A stretch of 49,611 bases of DNA from an uncultured Geobacteraceae bacterium. Lineage in GTDB: Bacteria > Desulfobacterota > Desulfuromonadia > Geobacterales > Pseudopelobacteraceae. A program made the position numbers and the translations under genes. Every line of letters begins with the position of its first letter. The stretch's first letter is position 1. Under the pieces are notes generated by a model that saw only the letters and a list, made by a program, of their open reading frames with translations, made no database searches and was not told the origin of the DNA. Shown here one piece after another: positions 29,096 to 35,942 of the stretch. Location: positions 1 to 49,611 of the forward strand of contig CAIUSO010000148.1 of NCBI GenBank assembly GCA_903901875.1. Direction: 5' to 3'.

Positions 29096-31093
29096 TCAGT
29101 GAGCCCAGAGCATCAGAATGAACAGCGTGGCAAAAATATACAACACATAAATATGCATCAACCCGTTCTGCAAGCGCCGTAAAAAAGCGAATGACATCCC
29201 GGCGGCCTGGAAGAACGGTGCGATGATTGCGTCAAGGAGCGTTTCCGTGGGAGTATCACTGCACCGGGAGCGCTCCGGGAAAAGTCCGGCGAGCAGCGGT
29301 CGCTCTATCCGTTGGCGAACAACGCCGTTCCCGATGGAAATCGCCAGTTCGGAAAAGGAGGTCCCCCCATACTGCATGCGGGACGTACCCCGTTGATAGC
29401 CACAGCCCCAGGTTGGTGCGGCCGTCACCGGTTCTCTGCCGAGGCGCCATTTCCAGATGACCGTGACGACCAGAGCCATGGTCAGGAGCAGCACACCAGC
29501 AAGGGAAAGCTTTTCCAAAATGGCACCGTACTCCGCAGAAAGCGGGAGTAGCGGAAGCCGGGGAAACAGGGTCATGACCGCCGGTGACACCAGAGAAAGC
29601 GCCATCTGGGGGACCACGCCGATCACCAGACAGAGGAACGCACAAAGAAGCATCGGCACCCCCATCTGCAACTCACCCCCCCGATGAACTCCTCCACCGG
29701 GACTTCGGGGCGTACCCAGAAACACGGAGCTGTACAGCTTGGTAAAGGTAATCGCCGCCAAGCCACCCACCAGGGCCAGCACCGGGGCCCCCGCCATCAG
29801 ATAGATCAGATTGTCGCCCTGGAGCTGGGAGAAAAAACCAAGATAAAGCAGAAATTCACTGACAAAGCCGTTCAAGGGGGGTATGCCGCAGATGGCAACT
29901 GTTCCCACCAGAAAAAGCCCACCAATGCGTGGCATGGTCTTGCCAAGCCCCCCCATCAGATTCATGTCACGGGTACCGGTGGCATGAATGATTACGCCCG
30001 AGCCGAGGAACAGCAGCGGCTTGAACAGACTGTGGTTGAGGACATGGAGCAGGGCCCCGGCCCCCCCCAGATACATCAGTTCGGGAATCCGGCTCGCGGC
30101 ACCGACCAGGGCGATCCCCATGCCAAGGGAAATAATGCCGATATTTTCAATGCTGCTGCAAGCCAGCAGCCGTTTCAGATCCCGCTGGGCCAAGGCAAAG
30201 GATATGCCGAGCAGTGCTGAAATGATACCGGCAATCGTCAGTATGGTTCCCCATACCAGAGGAATATCGTAAAAGAATGAGGCGGTCCGCACGATGCCGT
30301 ATACCCCCATTTTCAGCATGACACCGGACATAAGTGCCGACACGTGACTCGGTGCGTTGGCATGGGCAGGGGGAAGCCAGAAGTGGAGCGGCATGATACC
30401 GGCCTTGGCCCCGAACCCGATTAACCCGGCCAGTGCCATAAGGGGGGCCAGCGGAGTGAGTGCCGACAATGAACCGGCAGGAGGAAGCAGAAACGTGCCG
30501 GTCTGGGCAGCAAGCAGGGAGAACAGCAACAGGAGCAGGGCACTGCCGCAATGGGTAGCAATCAGGTAAATGGTACCAGCTCGTCGAACCTCTTCCCGTT
30601 CATGTTCGGTCACAATTAAAAAATAGGCAGAAAGTGCCATGACTTCCCACACCATCATGAAAAACACCGTATTTCTCGCCATCAGCAATAATGCCATGGA
30701 CGCCCCAAGTGTGCCGAAGAACAAGGTCAAACCGGGCTCACTGCGGCGGTATTGCCGGGCCGGCCAGTAACCGACCGCGAACAGGGAACCGGCGGCCGTA
30801 ACCAGAAATACCGGGATCAGAAAGAGGGCTGAAAGCGGATCGATGGCCAGGTCACACGGACCGAACGGCAGACTCCAGGCGATGCTGCGGGTTGCGGTTG
30901 TTCCGGACAAGAGGAGCTGGAGCACCGTCGGAATACCGATCAAGGCGGCACAGATGGTACACAGGGCAGCCACCACCTGACCGGGACCGGGTCTTTTCAG
31001 GAACAGGCCGGGGATTCCGGCACACCCCATAACAAGCGTGGCGTCAAGCACCAGCAACACAGGGTCAACGGGACCCTGTAGGAAGGAATACAT
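29096..31093 (-). CDS. Ehr complex NuoL/HyfB-like antiporter subunit (second copy in gene order)
   Basis: A 665-residue membrane protein, with FMMVWEVMALSAYF (helix-5 glutamate), FGAKAGIMPLHFWLPPAHAN (broken-helix lysine), LLACSSIENIGII and HVLNHSLFKPLLFLGSG (later lysine). The C-terminal extension includes TWGCGYQRGTSRMQYGGTSF, which is characteristic of HyfB-type subunits. It is similar to the neighbour at 31263-33269 over its whole length, suggesting an old duplication. AAGGGG precedes the ATG. A 169-bp spacer with a possible weak terminator separates it from that neighbour. Confidence 0.92.
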   Translation of the reverse strand: MYSFLQGPVDPVLLVLDATLVMGCAGIPGLFLKRPGPGQVVAALCTICAALIGIPTVLQLLLSGTTATRSIAWSLPFGPCDLAIDPLSALFLIPVFLVTAAGSLFAVGYWPARQYRRSEPGLTLFFGTLGASMALLLMARNTVFFMMVWEVMALSAYFLIVTEHEREEVRRAGTIYLIATHCGSALLLLLFSLLAAQTGTFLLPPAGSLSALTPLAPLMALAGLIGFGAKAGIMPLHFWLPPAHANAPSHVSALMSGVMLKMGVYGIVRTASFFYDIPLVWGTILTIAGIISALLGISFALAQRDLKRLLACSSIENIGIISLGMGIALVGAASRIPELMYLGGAGALLHVLNHSLFKPLLFLGSGVIIHATGTRDMNLMGGLGKTMPRIGGLFLVGTVAICGIPPLNGFVSEFLLYLGFFSQLQGDNLIYLMAGAPVLALVGGLAAITFTKLYSSVFLGTPRSPGGGVHRGGELQMGVPMLLCAFLCLVIGVVPQMALSLVSPAVMTLFPRLPLLPLSAEYGAILEKLSLAGVLLLTMALVVTVIWKWRLGREPVTAAPTWGCGYQRGTSRMQYGGTSFSELAISIGNGVVRQRIERPLLAGLFPERSRCSDTPTETLLDAIIAPFFQAAGMSFAFLRRLQNGLMHIYVLYIFATLFILMLWAH

Positions 31094-31188
31094 AGAGAAA
31101 ACCCCTTGACAGAGAACTACTCAACACAGGGAGCTGTGTGTCAGGTGACATCCGATACTGAACCTCAAAAGCGGCCGGTGTCAATAAA

Positions 31189-31213
31189 AAACTGTTTCCA
31201 AAATGCACAGTTT
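31189..31213 (-). terminator. Possible weak terminator or attenuator inside the Ehr operon
   Basis: In the 169-bp gap between the two NuoL-like genes, a 7-bp stem (AAACTGT / ACAGTTT) with an 11-base loop runs on the minus strand straight into a T run (CAGTTTTTTATTG). The stem is weak, so stopping would be partial. The same gap holds TTGACA (minus strand, 31184-31179), which might start an internal transcript, though no good -10 is clear. Confidence 0.3.
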
Positions 31214-31262
31214 CTTCTCCTTTTCTGCCCCATCCCCCCACACACCCCACCTTCCGGGGCCA

Positions 31263-33269
31263 TCAGAAATAGCTGGCAGCCAGCAATACAATCAGGGTTA
31301 TCAAACTGTAGAGGACGTACTGCTGCAAAATGCCGCTCTGCATTTTACGGATGGGGGAAAAGCGTCGATAGAGTTCCTGAAGGGCCGGAATGTAAAGCCG
31401 CTCAAGCACCGCTTCCGGCACATGGCTGGTAAGCCGGGCGGGTCCGGGGAAAAGCCCCTTCATGTTTCCTGTCCGATGCCGCTCAGGCATGAGTGCGAAA
31501 GCAAAAAGCCCGATCAGCATTTCGGCAAAGGAGGAAGCGGTGTACTGCATGCGGGGAACGGGACGCTGGTAACCACACCCCCAGGTGGGTGCAGAACCGG
31601 AATGACCGGAAATGAGGCGACGGTACCACCACCAGAGAACGGCACTAAGGGTTAACAACAGCACTGCGGTGGCCGACAGGGCGGTGAGCGGCACCAACCG
31701 GGAGAGCAGAACTCCGGCCTGGCCGACAACCTCGGGCAGCACCGACCTGCTGACCTGCTGCAGCAGTCCGGCGATGCCAGCCGGGGCCAGACCGATCGCC
31801 AGACACCCTCCACCCAGCAACAACATCGGCACCAGCATCTGCCATCCGGCTTCATGCTGTCCGTAGTGATTGGCGGACCGGGGAGCACCTAAAAATATGA
31901 TGCCGTAGACCTTGACAAAACAGGCAACCGCCAGGGCACCGATCAGGGCCAGGGGAGGTATGGCCAGGGCCACCGCCACCGCCCCTCCCCCCTCACCCTG
32001 AATACCATGGAATAACCCGAGATAGATGCACAGCTCACTGACAAAACCGTTGAGCGGGGGCAACCCGCAAATGGCCACGGATCCAATTCCAAACAGTAAA
32101 GCTGTGAGCGGAAGGTTCTTCCCCACACCTCCCAGCAGGTCGATTTCCCTGGTTCCCGTGGCATGGATAACCGATCCGGCCCCCAGAAAGAGCAGTGCCT
32201 TGAACAGCGCGTGGTTGATAACATGCAGCAGGGCACCTGCCATTCCGAGTAGCATCATCGGTTCCGAACCGACCGTTTGCCCAAGCAGTGCCACCCCGAC
32301 CCCCATGAAAATAATGCCGATATTTTCAATACTATGGTACGCCAGCAATCGTTTCAAATCATGCTGTCCAATGGCAAAGGCCACACCGATGACCCCCGAG
32401 ACTACCCCCAGCAGCAGCACAGTACCCCCCCACCAGAGCGGCACCCCATGGAAAAACGAGAGGGTACGAATCAGACCGTAGACCCCGATTTTCAGGATGA
32501 CACCGGACATGGCAGCAGAAACGTGGCTGGGAGCATTGGCATGGGCAGAGGGGAGCCAGATGTGAAACGGCATGATGCCGGCCTTAAGACCAAAGGCAAA
32601 CAGGGCAGCCAGAAAAACCACCGAGGGGATTCCGGGCGACGCGGTAAGTGTCAAGGGCGGAGGGAACAACCAGGAACCGGTCAGCAGGTGCAGCAGGGGG
32701 AAAAGTGCAAACAGACCGAGGGTACCGGTGTGGGTGGTGATCATATACAGGGTACCGGCTTCACGGACCTCCGGTTTTTCATTTTCGGTAGAAACCAGGA
32801 AAAAAGCGGCCAAGGCCATTATTTCCCAGGCAAACAGAAAACTGATAGCATCGCGGGCCAGCACCACCCCCCCCATACTGGCGGTCATAACACCGAAAAA
32901 GAAGGTCATCGGCCGAACCGTGGCGGGGTGGTGATCTGCATGCCAGTAACTGCGCGCGTACAGGGCGGCGCAGCCGGTGATACCAAAGATGGGGAGCAGA
33001 AACCACGCAGAAAGGGAATCAACACCAAGTTGTACCGGACCAAAGGGGAGCGACCAGGAGATTTCAAACAACGTGGAGTGGCCATTAATCAGAAACGCCA
33101 CGGCACCGGCGACTCCTGAAACGGAAGAGAGAATCATCAGAATTACCGACAGTAATTGGGCACGAGCAGCATGCCGGGCGGAGGAGAACAACAGTGGAGT
33201 CCCGGAAAAAGCCGCCAGCAGTATGGCAGAAAAAATCAGGGTACTTGGGGCAAACAACTCCTGCGCCAT
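31263..33269 (-). CDS. Ehr complex NuoL/HyfB-like antiporter subunit (first copy in gene order)
   Basis: A 668-residue membrane protein of the HyfB type. FLFAWEIMALAAFF holds the helix-5 glutamate, FGLKAGIMPFHIWLPSAHANAP the broken-helix lysine, LLAYHSIENIGIIF and HVINHALFKALLFLGAGSV the later lysine. The tail has TWGCGYQRPVPRMQYTASSF. With the 665-residue neighbour and the HyfF-like protein it makes three antiporter-type subunits, as in complex I and hydrogenase-4. It starts 6 bp after the HTH-PTS IIA gene and has AGGAGGT before its ATG. Confidence 0.92.
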   Translation of the reverse strand: MAQELFAPSTLIFSAILLAAFSGTPLLFSSARHAARAQLLSVILMILSSVSGVAGAVAFLINGHSTLFEISWSLPFGPVQLGVDSLSAWFLLPIFGITGCAALYARSYWHADHHPATVRPMTFFFGVMTASMGGVVLARDAISFLFAWEIMALAAFFLVSTENEKPEVREAGTLYMITTHTGTLGLFALFPLLHLLTGSWLFPPPLTLTASPGIPSVVFLAALFAFGLKAGIMPFHIWLPSAHANAPSHVSAAMSGVILKIGVYGLIRTLSFFHGVPLWWGGTVLLLGVVSGVIGVAFAIGQHDLKRLLAYHSIENIGIIFMGVGVALLGQTVGSEPMMLLGMAGALLHVINHALFKALLFLGAGSVIHATGTREIDLLGGVGKNLPLTALLFGIGSVAICGLPPLNGFVSELCIYLGLFHGIQGEGGGAVAVALAIPPLALIGALAVACFVKVYGIIFLGAPRSANHYGQHEAGWQMLVPMLLLGGGCLAIGLAPAGIAGLLQQVSRSVLPEVVGQAGVLLSRLVPLTALSATAVLLLTLSAVLWWWYRRLISGHSGSAPTWGCGYQRPVPRMQYTASSFAEMLIGLFAFALMPERHRTGNMKGLFPGPARLTSHVPEAVLERLYIPALQELYRRFSPIRKMQSGILQQYVLYSLITLIVLLAASYF

Positions 33270-33275
33270 GATGCA

Positions 33276-33953
33276 CTACCTCCTGATTGTTGTTTCCTCC
33301 AACCTGCCGATGGTCGCCATAATTTCTTCCACATTGCCGGGGTGGTGAAGCAACTCCTGGAAAGCATGATCATGGAGGAGAAAGGCGAGTTTTGCCAGAA
33401 GATGCAGATGGGTGGTGACATTAGGCGTCACCAGAGTAAAGAGGATAGTAACCGGCTGCCCATCCACGGCGTCGAAATCAATGGGGTTATTGAGAAAGCA
33501 GAGGCTGATTGCAGACTCCCCTGACTGACCGACGATGGGGTTACGAACATGGGGGATGGCAATGCCGTTGCCAAAGGCGGTTGAACCGAGGGCTTCCCGT
33601 GCCAGCAGGGTCTGCAGCAGAAATTCCGGGTCCAGACCGGGGGGAAGGGCCAAACGGGAAACCACCTCCCGTAATACCGCTTCCGGGGTATCACCCGGCA
33701 GACTATAGTGAATCCCGCCACGCCGGAGTGCCGATGAAACCGTCGACGATTTGTCTGCAACCGCGCCGACATCAAAAATATCGGGGGGGATGGTGATTCC
33801 CTTATTGGTGGCCCATTCAAGAAGATCAACCCGATTAATGCGATAACGATCATCCTGCTTGTGGGCAGGAAGCCCCTCATGCTTGATCCAGTGCAGAACG
33901 GTTTTTTCGTCAACATCCGCCGCAACGGCAAGATCGGCTACCTTTAAAAACAT
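33276..33953 (-). CDS. HTH-PTS IIA (PtsN-like) fusion regulator
   Basis: A 225-residue protein with two parts. Residues about 1-55 are an excisionase/MerR-type helix-turn-helix (VADLAVAADVDEKTVLHWIKHEG with RYRINRVDLLEWA). Residues about 75-220 are a fructose/nitrogen-type PTS IIA domain; the phosphorylatable histidine is His135 in GNGIAIPHVRNP. It is the first gene of the Ehr transcript, 6 bp before the first NuoL-like gene. This suggests that a phosphorylation signal, perhaps from a nitrogen-type PTS, controls the complex or its genes. No EI or HPr gene is in the window. GGAG precedes the ATG. Confidence 0.87.
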   Translation of the reverse strand: MFLKVADLAVAADVDEKTVLHWIKHEGLPAHKQDDRYRINRVDLLEWATNKGITIPPDIFDVGAVADKSSTVSSALRRGGIHYSLPGDTPEAVLREVVSRLALPPGLDPEFLLQTLLAREALGSTAFGNGIAIPHVRNPIVGQSGESAISLCFLNNPIDFDAVDGQPVTILFTLVTPNVTTHLHLLAKLAFLLHDHAFQELLHHPGNVEEIMATIGRLEETTIRR

Positions 33954-34114
33954 TGCAAGTCTCCAGATAAATCAATGCAACACACTGTAATAAATAATAA
34001 TTTATAGAAATAGCAACTTAAGACTGTACAAACAATGCAATTAAAAGTAAAGGTATATTTGACTATTGAAAAGCTTCTTGACTACCATACGCTATTTACG
34101 TTAGTTTGTTCAAA

Positions 34115-34120
34115 TATAAT
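34115..34120 (+). promoter_or_regulatory. Perfect -10 box for the riboswitch-chemoreceptor transcript
   Basis: TATAAT at 34115-34120 lies about 20 bases before the start of the aptamer, so transcription would begin near 34127 and include the whole riboswitch. No good -35 is seen 16-18 bases upstream. Two direct copies of TTGACTA (34059-34065 and 34078-34084) lie further upstream and could bind an activator. The rest of the divergent spacer 33954-34114 is AT-rich and shows no gene. Confidence 0.5.
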
Positions 34121-34134
34121 TGTTTATTAGTCAC

Positions 34135-34216
34135 CATGTCTCAGTGAAGAGCAAACTCAGAGCAATCTGGGGACGCAAAGCTACGAGTCCCCAAGGGATA
34201 GTCGGGTTACCGGAGA
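34135..34216 (+). ncRNA. GEMM-I riboswitch, predicted cyclic AMP-GMP type (GEMM-Ib)
   Basis: The sequence has the GEMM-I hallmarks in order: GAGCAAAC (34149-34156); a stem CTCAGA/TCTGGG capped by the GNRA loop GCAA (34157-34172 region); GGACGCAAAGC (34171-34181); a short second hairpin TCCC-CAA-GGGA as tetraloop receptor arm; and CGGGTTACC (34203-34211). In cyclic di-GMP aptamers the trinucleotide before CAAAC reads GGG; here it reads GAG, with A34150 at the place of the ligand-contacting G20. This G-to-A change is known from Geobacter aptamers that prefer 3',3'-cyclic AMP-GMP. It precedes a chemoreceptor gene, linking that second messenger to chemotaxis or surface behaviour. Confidence 0.88.
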
Positions 34217-34224
34217 GAAGGATG

Positions 34225-34266
34225 CGCCAACAGCCCTTCTTGAAATATCAGGAAGGGCTGTTGGCG
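34225..34266 (+). terminator. Strong hairpin, probable riboswitch expression platform
   Basis: A 15-bp perfect stem (34225-34239 with 34252-34266), extended by four inner pairs to a 4-base loop, starts 9 bases after the aptamer and ends 16 bases before the ribosome site AAGGAG at 34283. The following bases TTCAGGC lack a real T run, so it is a poor classic intrinsic terminator. It may need another factor, or act by folding against the aptamer closing stem. Confidence 0.6.
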
Positions 34267-34295
34267 TTCAGGCTACACACCTAAGGAGTAACATT

Positions 34296-35942
34296 ATGAA
34301 ATGGATCGATCTGAAGTTGAGAACCAAGCTGTTGACACTGGTGTCATTGGGCGTTGTTGGAGTGATCATTGTTGGCATGATGAGTATCGCAAACCAGAAA
34401 CATGCGAACGGTAATCTGCGGGAACTTAACAACAATGTGCGCAATGTGGCGGTGTATGGCGAACTGAAGAGTGTGCTGCTTACGGCACGACTCGATCTCG
34501 TCTACATGATGGCACTTGAAGACATTACCAAGATACAGGCAAAAAATGACGACTACAAAGCCCAAATGCTCCAGATTAAAAAGCTTATCGGCGACGCGGA
34601 ACAATCCAGGCTAACCCCGGAGGACAAAAGCCAGCTGACCCAGTTCAGGGAAGGGTGTGAAGCATATGAGACACTGGGAAACAAGGTTGCTGAAATGCTG
34701 CTTGCGGCTCACACCACCAACAATAAAACGGCCCTTGCAGAGGCAATTACCTTTGGCACGGGAACCGTTGCGCCCCTGTATGCAAAACCGGCCAAAGCCA
34801 TAGAGACCCTCAATTCCACCAACATCAGGAATAGCGGTAATCTCTTTATCGCCGCCGACAAATCTGCATCGAACTCGATCATTTACTGCACCATCACCGT
34901 TATCCTGGTGGTAGTGATTTCCCTGTTGATCAGTATACTCATTGCACGGGGAATTACCCGCTCAGTGGAGGACATTTTAAAGGTCATGGCATCCATCGCC
35001 AACGGCAATTTGACCATCAGGTCATCAAACCTCTCCGAAGACGAAATGGGCCTGCTGGGAAAAGAGGTCAACATCATGGCGGAACAATTGTCAGACGTTA
35101 TCAAGCGCGTTTCCGACAATAGCCATTCGGTTTCATCGGCGGCAATACAGATGCACAGCACCTCCGGCCAGATGGCCACCACCACGGAAGAGTTGGCGGC
35201 CCAGGCAAGCACCATTGCGACGGCATGTGAGGAGATGGCAGCCACCTCATCGGAAATAGCCCGCAACTGCCATTCTGCCGCCGGAGATTCCGCCAAGGCC
35301 AACGAAGCCGCCCATGTAGGGGCACAGGTTGTCGAAGCCACGGTAACGGTCATGAGCCGCATTGCCGACAGGGTACGGGCCACGGCACAGACCGTCGAAA
35401 CCCTGGGGTCCAAATCGGAACAGATCGGCAACATCATCGGCACCATCGAAGACATTGCCGACCAGACCAATCTGCTTGCCCTCAATGCCGCCATTGAAGC
35501 AGCCCGGGCCGGTGAACAGGGAAGAGGTTTTGCCGTTGTCGCCGATGAGGTGCGGGCACTGGCCGAAAGAACCACGCGGGCAACGCGGGAGATTGGTGAA
35601 ATGATCAAGGCAATCCAGGGGGAAACCAAGAGTGCCGTCGCGGCAATGAACGATGGTGTACTGCAGGTGGAACAGGGAACCCTGGAGGCGGCAAAATCAG
35701 GCGAGGCACTGCGCCACATCCTCGAGCAGATTGCCAACGTCACCAGCCAGGTAAACCAGATAGCGGTGGCGGCAGAGGAGCAGACGGCAACCACCATGGA
35801 AATCAACAACAACATTCAGCAGATTACGGAAGTGGCCCATATTTCATCCACCTCATCCCATGAGGAATCACGGGCGGCACATTCACTCTCCACCCTGGCC
35901 GAAGAGTTAAAGGCCATGGTCGGACAGTTCAGACTGGCGTAA
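34296..35942 (+). CDS. Methyl-accepting chemotaxis protein
   Basis: A 548-residue transmembrane chemoreceptor. It has an N-terminal helix (about 12-30), a periplasmic four-helix-bundle ligand domain (about 31-190), a second helix (about 191-214), a HAMP domain (about 215-268) and a cytoplasmic signalling coiled coil. The conserved hairpin tip reads [37 protein letters not shown]. No C-terminal CheR pentapeptide is present. AAGGAG lies 7 bases before the ATG. Expression is predicted to depend on the riboswitch upstream. The ligand is unknown, and no che genes are in the window. Confidence 0.95.

Follow-up and report, generated by a model that had tools for sequence, protein, structure and literature searches.

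Base 20 is commonly used to assign GEMM-I aptamers to cyclic di-GMP (c-di-GMP) or to cyclic AMP-GMP (cGAMP). For the c-di-GMP-I riboswitch Cd1, the accessible part of the paper by Landgraf et al. gives G11 as the equivalent of G20. Published work, in the text available, calls base 20 a selectivity factor and not a hard filter, and reports that changing this position of Cd1 to A or C had no large effect on c-di-GMP binding (PMC9262584). According to excerpts from two other papers, a c-di-GMP-I riboswitch that carries the G20A change is able to bind cGAMP as well (PMC7288161), a point that we count against our main reading below, and Gmet_0970 with the A20G change is given as selective for c-di-GMP (PMC6456294). 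Two platform layouts are also described: in the ON riboswitch of pilM the 3′ strand of the aptamer is part of the terminator, whereas the OFF riboswitch Cd1 has a separate terminator and an antiterminator that takes the 3′ strand of the aptamer (PMC9262584, available text). The cGAMP class is described in front of numerous genes for cytochromes, pili and polysaccharides, and a cGAMP reporter was about 80% lower in G. sulfurreducens, evidently upon deletion of gacA (PMC6456294, in the sections available).

We examined a GEMM-I locus in a 49,611-nt stretch of DNA (the window), whose genome we call G000 and compare with a sister genome, G004, and other relatives. A covariance-model scan with the Rfam GEMM-I family, the check that the first-pass annotation of this DNA had proposed, gave a significant match at 34140–34214 on the forward strand (RF01051, c-di-GMP-I; 60 bits against a gathering cut-off of 35, E = 2.4 × 10−9). 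This match covered the full model (positions 1–87) and was the sole Rfam match over the gathering score in the whole window, and all 20 model pairs for which the sequence supplies both partners were standard (G–C, A–U or G–U). The window certainly contains a GEMM-I aptamer, as had been read from its hallmarks. Model position 11, which we take to be the equivalent of G20 in Vc2 numbering, is A34150, the same base that the annotation had singled out, and not G. G20 is the common and not the defining state of RF01051, as members with other bases also score over the cut-off. The core is of the standard type, for which we take GEMM-Ia to be the name. The features of the locus are collected in Table 1.

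Table 1. Features of the chemoreceptor leader and gene (window coordinates).
Feature	Position	Strand	Basis
TTGACT, −35-like, in sister-conserved stretch	34078–34083	+	Identical in L030 across AAAAGCTTCTTGACTACCA
Riboswitch module (approximate extent), missing at the orthologous site in the sister	34129–34284	+	Alignment gap against L030, net 145 nt
P strand of P1 (UCUC), partner 34215–34218	34139–34142	+	Sequence and folds
GEMM-I / c-di-GMP-I aptamer, standard (Ia-type) core	34140–34214	+	RF01051 60 bits, 20/20 pairs standard
A at G20-equivalent position	34150	+	Model position 11
P1b (34151–34152 with 34175–34176, GC/GC, not cGAMP-class CU/GG) around P2	34151–34176	+	Model match, pair check, core comparison
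P2 with GCAA loop, inside P1b	34156–34171	+	Model match, pair check
P3	34179–34208	+	Model match, pair check
A strand (GAGAAGG), pairs with P (P1) or with T 34235–34241 (antiterminator-like)	34215–34221	+	P:A −8.1, A:T −9.0 kcal/mol
T:H hairpin, 20 pairs, loop AAUA, without U tract	34224–34267	+	−37.8 kcal/mol
Ribosome-binding site AAGGAG	34283–34288	+	Sequence; opening 34284–34290 costs 0.5–1.6 kcal/mol (free and aptamer-enforced folds)
Methyl-accepting chemotaxis protein, 548 aa, ATG 34296	34296–35942	+	Pfam 4HB_MCP_1, HAMP, MCPsignal

The annotation's ribosome site, followed by an intact methyl-accepting chemotaxis frame, was borne out. Divergent from this gene lies a PTS EIIA-HTH gene (33276–33953), which adjoins two Proton_antipo_M membrane subunits of 665 and 668 aa (29096–33269, reverse strand). 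Elsewhere in the genome, L029 (G000:C93:3486-3701) is a truncated second copy of chemoreceptor residues 1–72, 64% identical, whose leader differs and contains no riboswitch.

Among 39 genomes of the genus, the closest homologue of the chemoreceptor was that of the sister, 86% identical over residues 1–278; the named relative CAIRBT010000014.1, from an uncultured Geobacteraceae bacterium (L030), is evidently the same contig as the sister's. Window and sister share the divergent upstream gene, the region up to 34128 aligns (124 of 168 positions), and the ribosome site aligns again after a gap that spans the module. An 11-nt block inside this gap aligns at 8 of 11 positions, possibly by chance. 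RF01051 was not found, at E up to 0.5, at any of 11 loci (L020–L030: the sister, eight distant homologues, the genome's own fragment and the named copy). A consensus scan picked out a second TTGACT (34059), which the sister does not share, and yielded no −10 element assignable with confidence. Judging from this one alignable orthologue, the module was more likely gained in the window's lineage than lost in the sister's. No donor was found; the most similar aptamer (G032:C335) reached no more than 81% in the similarity score applied. G020 carries six nearly identical copies of aptamer plus terminator before unrelated genes with unrelated flanks (C277:3943, C669:4216, C76:4763, C564:1992, C586:56372 and C293:2411; L185, L188, L189, L191, L192 and L195), which suggests that riboswitch modules move or multiply within a genome. 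The sites in the window and the sister, a present/absent pair before an orthologous gene, should be useful for understanding how riboswitches reach new genes.

On balance, we lean towards reading the module, of about 145 nt, as a standard-core GEMM-I riboswitch with A20 and an OFF-type layout, the ligand of which is most likely c-di-GMP, perhaps with relaxed selectivity, and not cGAMP alone. In our proposed model, the module separates the promoter region of a resident chemoreceptor gene from its ribosome site. With ligand bound, strand A would pair with P and the freed T with H; without ligand, A would pair with T. Most other riboswitches of the genome appear to have this four-strand layout. 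From the OFF-type layout it would follow that high cyclic dinucleotide lowers chemoreceptor expression. Termination at the 20-pair T:H hairpin is probably weak for want of a T run, and the riboswitch may respond less sharply or act through a different output.

The annotation's description of a very strong hairpin without a T run, in an expression platform unlike a textbook terminator, fits our results. The hairpin starts 10 nt past the last aptamer base and is GC-rich, as expected of an intrinsic terminator; nowhere from 34215 to 34320 do three or more T follow one another, and a terminator scan found no terminator. At −37.8 kcal/mol, it was the strongest of 47 downstream hairpins in five genomes (runner-up −26.7) as computed with a generic finder, which often overran the T run at other loci and is usable only for the window's value and a rough ranking. 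A stronger hairpin (−40.7 kcal/mol) was found in G054 in the wider set. Platform layouts and P/A/T/H strands were scored with hairpins anchored on T runs (L127 was misassigned in the strand-energy set), and by this measure the 16 other T:H hairpins scored in the genome ranged from −6.9 to −18.1 kcal/mol. A:T hairpins of −5 kcal/mol or below were present in 12 of the 17 riboswitches of the genome that were scored; L018 gave no hairpin. The predicted fold of the 196-nt leader was more stable than that of every one of 200 shuffles (z = −4.65), an excess presumably due mostly to the hairpin. In folds of the growing transcript, with the start assumed at 34118, A:T was the minimum-energy form at 34242 and 34248, and T:H prevailed by 34260. 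Strand logic of the OFF type is thus preserved in the window, together with an oversized hairpin that no T run follows. In place of the T run of relatives, the 3′ arm of this hairpin continues to complement the 5′ arm, and resembles what a palindrome-perfecting template switch might leave. Sequestration of the ribosome site was also considered and rejected: enforcing the aptamer had no effect, and the site was open in every state folded. Two other chemoreceptor riboswitches of the genome, L009 (G000:C71:32403-32481) and L013 (G000:C50:16080-16156), also have a hairpin without a T run; at L009 the ribosome site is the 3′ arm of the hairpin, an arrangement that suggests translational OFF control.

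These results bear on whether the riboswitch works at all. It may be decaying or inert, with the T run lost, the hairpin formed in every state, the ribosome site open and expression constitutive. The missing T run would agree with this, as would a T:H hairpin some 29–30 kcal/mol stronger than P:A or A:T, a ribosome site open in both the free and the aptamer-enforced folds, and a sister gene that does without any riboswitch. We also count against our main reading that the folded hairpin dominated with or without the aptamer enforced. On the other hand, all 20 aptamer pairs are intact, the P, A and T strands are still complementary, and the hairpins of L009 and L013 indicate that unusual outputs recur. 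We therefore regard an inert leader as unlikely.

To place the window's A20, we compared 204 aptamers: 18 from its own genome, 43 from five other genomes free of matches to the cGAMP synthase GacA (G004, G037, G040, G045 and G054), and 143 from 13 genomes with GacA, which were picked, among those with earlier matches, from the 35 GacA-containing genomes of the genus. A script parsed 199 of the aptamers, and visual inspection settled the remaining five; GEMM-I itself was present in all 58 genomes searched, the window's own included. In the 13 GacA-containing genomes, every aptamer with a C21–U22 core facing GG had A20 (83 of 83). This core is an empirical mark from the present comparison and not a published definition of the cGAMP class. 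The 51 aptamers of these genomes with a standard core (G21) had G20 in 46 cases, A20 in 3 and C20 in 2, and a third core, CC, came with G20 in 8 of 9. The window's core is GC/GC and not C21–U22 facing GG.

Aptamers with the C21–U22 core were found neither in the window's genome nor in its sister. Base 20 of the 18 aptamers in the window's genome was A in seven, C in five, G in five and U in one. G20 made up 5 of these 18 standard-core aptamers and 2 of 8 in the sister, or 7 of 26 together, a deficit with a Fisher P of 2.9 × 10−8 that presupposes independent aptamers, an assumption that does not hold. The C20 aptamers of the genome are L001, L002, L003, L007 and L008, and the U20 aptamer is L017; among the 143 aptamers of the 13 GacA-containing genomes, C20 occurred twice and U20 never. 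Single standard-core A20 aptamers were also present in G011, G020 and G032, all of which have GacA, and in G032 three of six standard-core aptamers were not G20. The base was identical in all four orthologous pairs of window and sister genome (two A/A, one G/G, one C/C), so drift of base 20 alone is not shown; the two A/A pairs fit a conserved, A20-specific role.

Platform layout followed the same division. The terminator takes in the 3′ strand of the aptamer, the ON layout, in 87 of 89 scored C21–U22 aptamers from 14 genomes (107 in all; the other 18 lacked a T run or formed just a weak hairpin). It lies wholly downstream, the OFF layout, in 20 of 22 scored riboswitches of the window's genome and its sister (26 in all; the window and L013, without a T run, were unscored, and two were weak). 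Among the 55 scored aptamers of other genomes that lack the C21–U22 core (71 in all), 39 had the terminator wholly downstream and 16 had the ON layout. Layout therefore goes with the core and not with GacA loss. In the window, the hairpin is separate from the aptamer.

We next consider the synthase. Serine marks Hypr enzymes at a defined GGDEF position, according to the sections available of PMC6456294. The residue was read here from direct translation of the matched GGDEF stretches. A receiver–GGDEF protein of G041 (L097) has this Ser, as does a divergent GGDEF protein of the same genome (L105). With the L097 domain as query, proteins 62–69% identical (GacA) were found in 35 of 37 genus genomes, and Ser was verified directly in G041, G032, G020, G018 and G022. 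No match at this level was found in the window's genome (best 42% identity) or in the sister (best 48%). None of the 25 GGDEF matches in the window's genome had Ser at the Hypr position, so that no GacA-type Hypr GGDEF synthase of the kind that goes with the cGAMP class was found there; L082 had Thr and L084, a degenerate domain, had Gly. No SMODS nucleotidyltransferase was matched in this genome either. L082 (G000:C45:37791-38261) and L098 of G041 both begin with a hydrophobic part and have Thr at the position that is Ser in Hypr enzymes and Asp in ordinary ones; they are possibly an unusual type of cyclase.

In G032 and G020, gacA lies between hisS and comEC, ending 4 nt and 56 nt before hisS, respectively. 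In the sister, comEC directly precedes hisS, with no match to gacA proteins in the interval. Contig C103 of the window's genome ends 210 nt upstream of hisS, a stretch in which gacA and comEC proteins match nothing, so that the slot is at a contig end and not closed. The simplest reading is that gacA was lost in the common ancestor of this genome and its sister. Two sets of genomes count against our main reading. G020, G022 and G032 have GacA and no C21–U22 aptamer, and loss of GacA and loss of these aptamers therefore do not coincide. Conversely, G037, G040, G045 and G054, from other genera, have no GacA match yet keep C21–U22 aptamers, so that absence by this search is no proof of absent cGAMP signalling.

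The genes controlled also set this genome apart. All 18 of its GEMM-I aptamers scored over the cut-off, and chemoreceptor genes stood behind six (two A20, three G20, one C20). The genome has 45 MCPsignal matches; the enrichment has a P of about 2 × 10−8 with 43 receptors among an assumed 3,900 genes. Chemoreceptors were behind none of the 143 riboswitches detected in the 13 GacA-containing relatives, where recognition relied on a signalling-domain motif within the DNA available at each locus (at least 1,350 nt downstream at 134 of the 143), so that a receptor with a long front part could have escaped. Likewise, no recognizable chemoreceptor gene stood behind any of the 107 C21–U22 aptamers of 14 genomes, 100 of which had at least 1,350 nt downstream. 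We also compared 17 riboswitch-led frames of the window's genome with those behind riboswitches of the 13 GacA-containing genomes and obtained no matches (E of 1 × 10−10, more than 38% identity, 60% coverage); the frames were the longest starting within 450 nt, some of which may be wrong, and L002 gave none. The available portions of the open literature describe no chemoreceptors under cGAMP riboswitches. The first-pass suggestion that cGAMP ties this chemoreceptor to surface attachment and electron transfer thus found no support among the C21–U22 aptamers.

A riboswitch selective for cGAMP would require that A20 alone confers selectivity and that cGAMP comes from another enzyme, for example the Thr-variant GGDEF protein at G000:C45. 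A34150 is itself the cGAMP signature of the Geobacter class, the selectivity listed for the A20G version of Gmet_0970 points the same way, the Thr variant L082 is present, and A20 recurs in 7 of 18 aptamers of the genome as well as in the single standard-core ones of G011, G020 and G032. Against this stand the different core and platform layout and the failure to find GacA or a SMODS nucleotidyltransferase. Moreover, a Thr-variant protein also occurs in G041 beside GacA, and the drop of about 80% in the G. sulfurreducens reporter indicates that cGAMP there does not come mainly from another enzyme (PMC6456294, in the sections available). We consider cGAMP selectivity unlikely, and the annotation's step from A20 to a cGAMP preference is not upheld by core, layout or synthase, the first two of which go together and hence are not fully independent. 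As far as sequence comparison can tell, the riboswitch is most likely of the c-di-GMP type or promiscuous, with a terminator that has been remodelled; c-di-GMP is the better guess because the change of position 20 to A or C in Cd1 did not abolish its binding. A translational switch, in which GUUAC (34206–34210) would pair with GUAAC (34288–34292) without ligand, the hairpin bringing both together, is very improbable: the 5-nt complementarity, perfect by eye, could easily be chance, the pairing is absent from minimum-energy folds, opening of the ribosome site costs only 0.5–1.6 kcal/mol, and no orthologue with the module was found for covariation.

How this genome came to its aptamers can be sketched only tentatively. 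It is possible, if doubtful, that the lineage lost its cGAMP synthase together with cGAMP-class riboswitches, and that this released base 20, the position that in relatives distinguishes c-di-GMP aptamers (G20) from cGAMP ones (A20); standard-core aptamers would then have taken A, C, G or U, kept c-di-GMP or gained a new ligand, and spread as cassettes into an OFF-type chemoreceptor regulon. The open literature, in the portions available, describes no release of base 20 after GacA loss. If such a release took place, A20 would be a misleading predictor of cGAMP sensing outside genomes with GacA. The window's genome and its sister, in which base 20 takes three or four letters and GacA was not found, offer a natural test of what this base is for. 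Should c-di-GMP be the ligand and the riboswitches be of the OFF type, a second messenger of sessile life would turn down six chemoreceptors of a single bacterium at once.

Compared with the described systems, the riboswitch in the window resembles the standard-core riboswitches Vc2 and Cd1, with which it shares the full model match, the GC/GC P1b, a P2 with a GNRA loop, P3 and the position in a 5′ leader. Like Cd1, it has a P–A–T–H layout with a terminator-like hairpin wholly downstream of the aptamer (PMC9262584, available text). It differs from Vc2 and Cd1 in having A instead of G at position 20 and a 20-pair hairpin without a T run. With the Geobacter cGAMP riboswitches (GEMM-Ib), such as those of pilM and pgcA, it shares the A at position 20. 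Unlike that class, it has a GC/GC core in place of C21–U22 facing GG, leaves the aptamer strand outside the hairpin, resides in a genome in which no GacA was found, and precedes a chemoreceptor gene.
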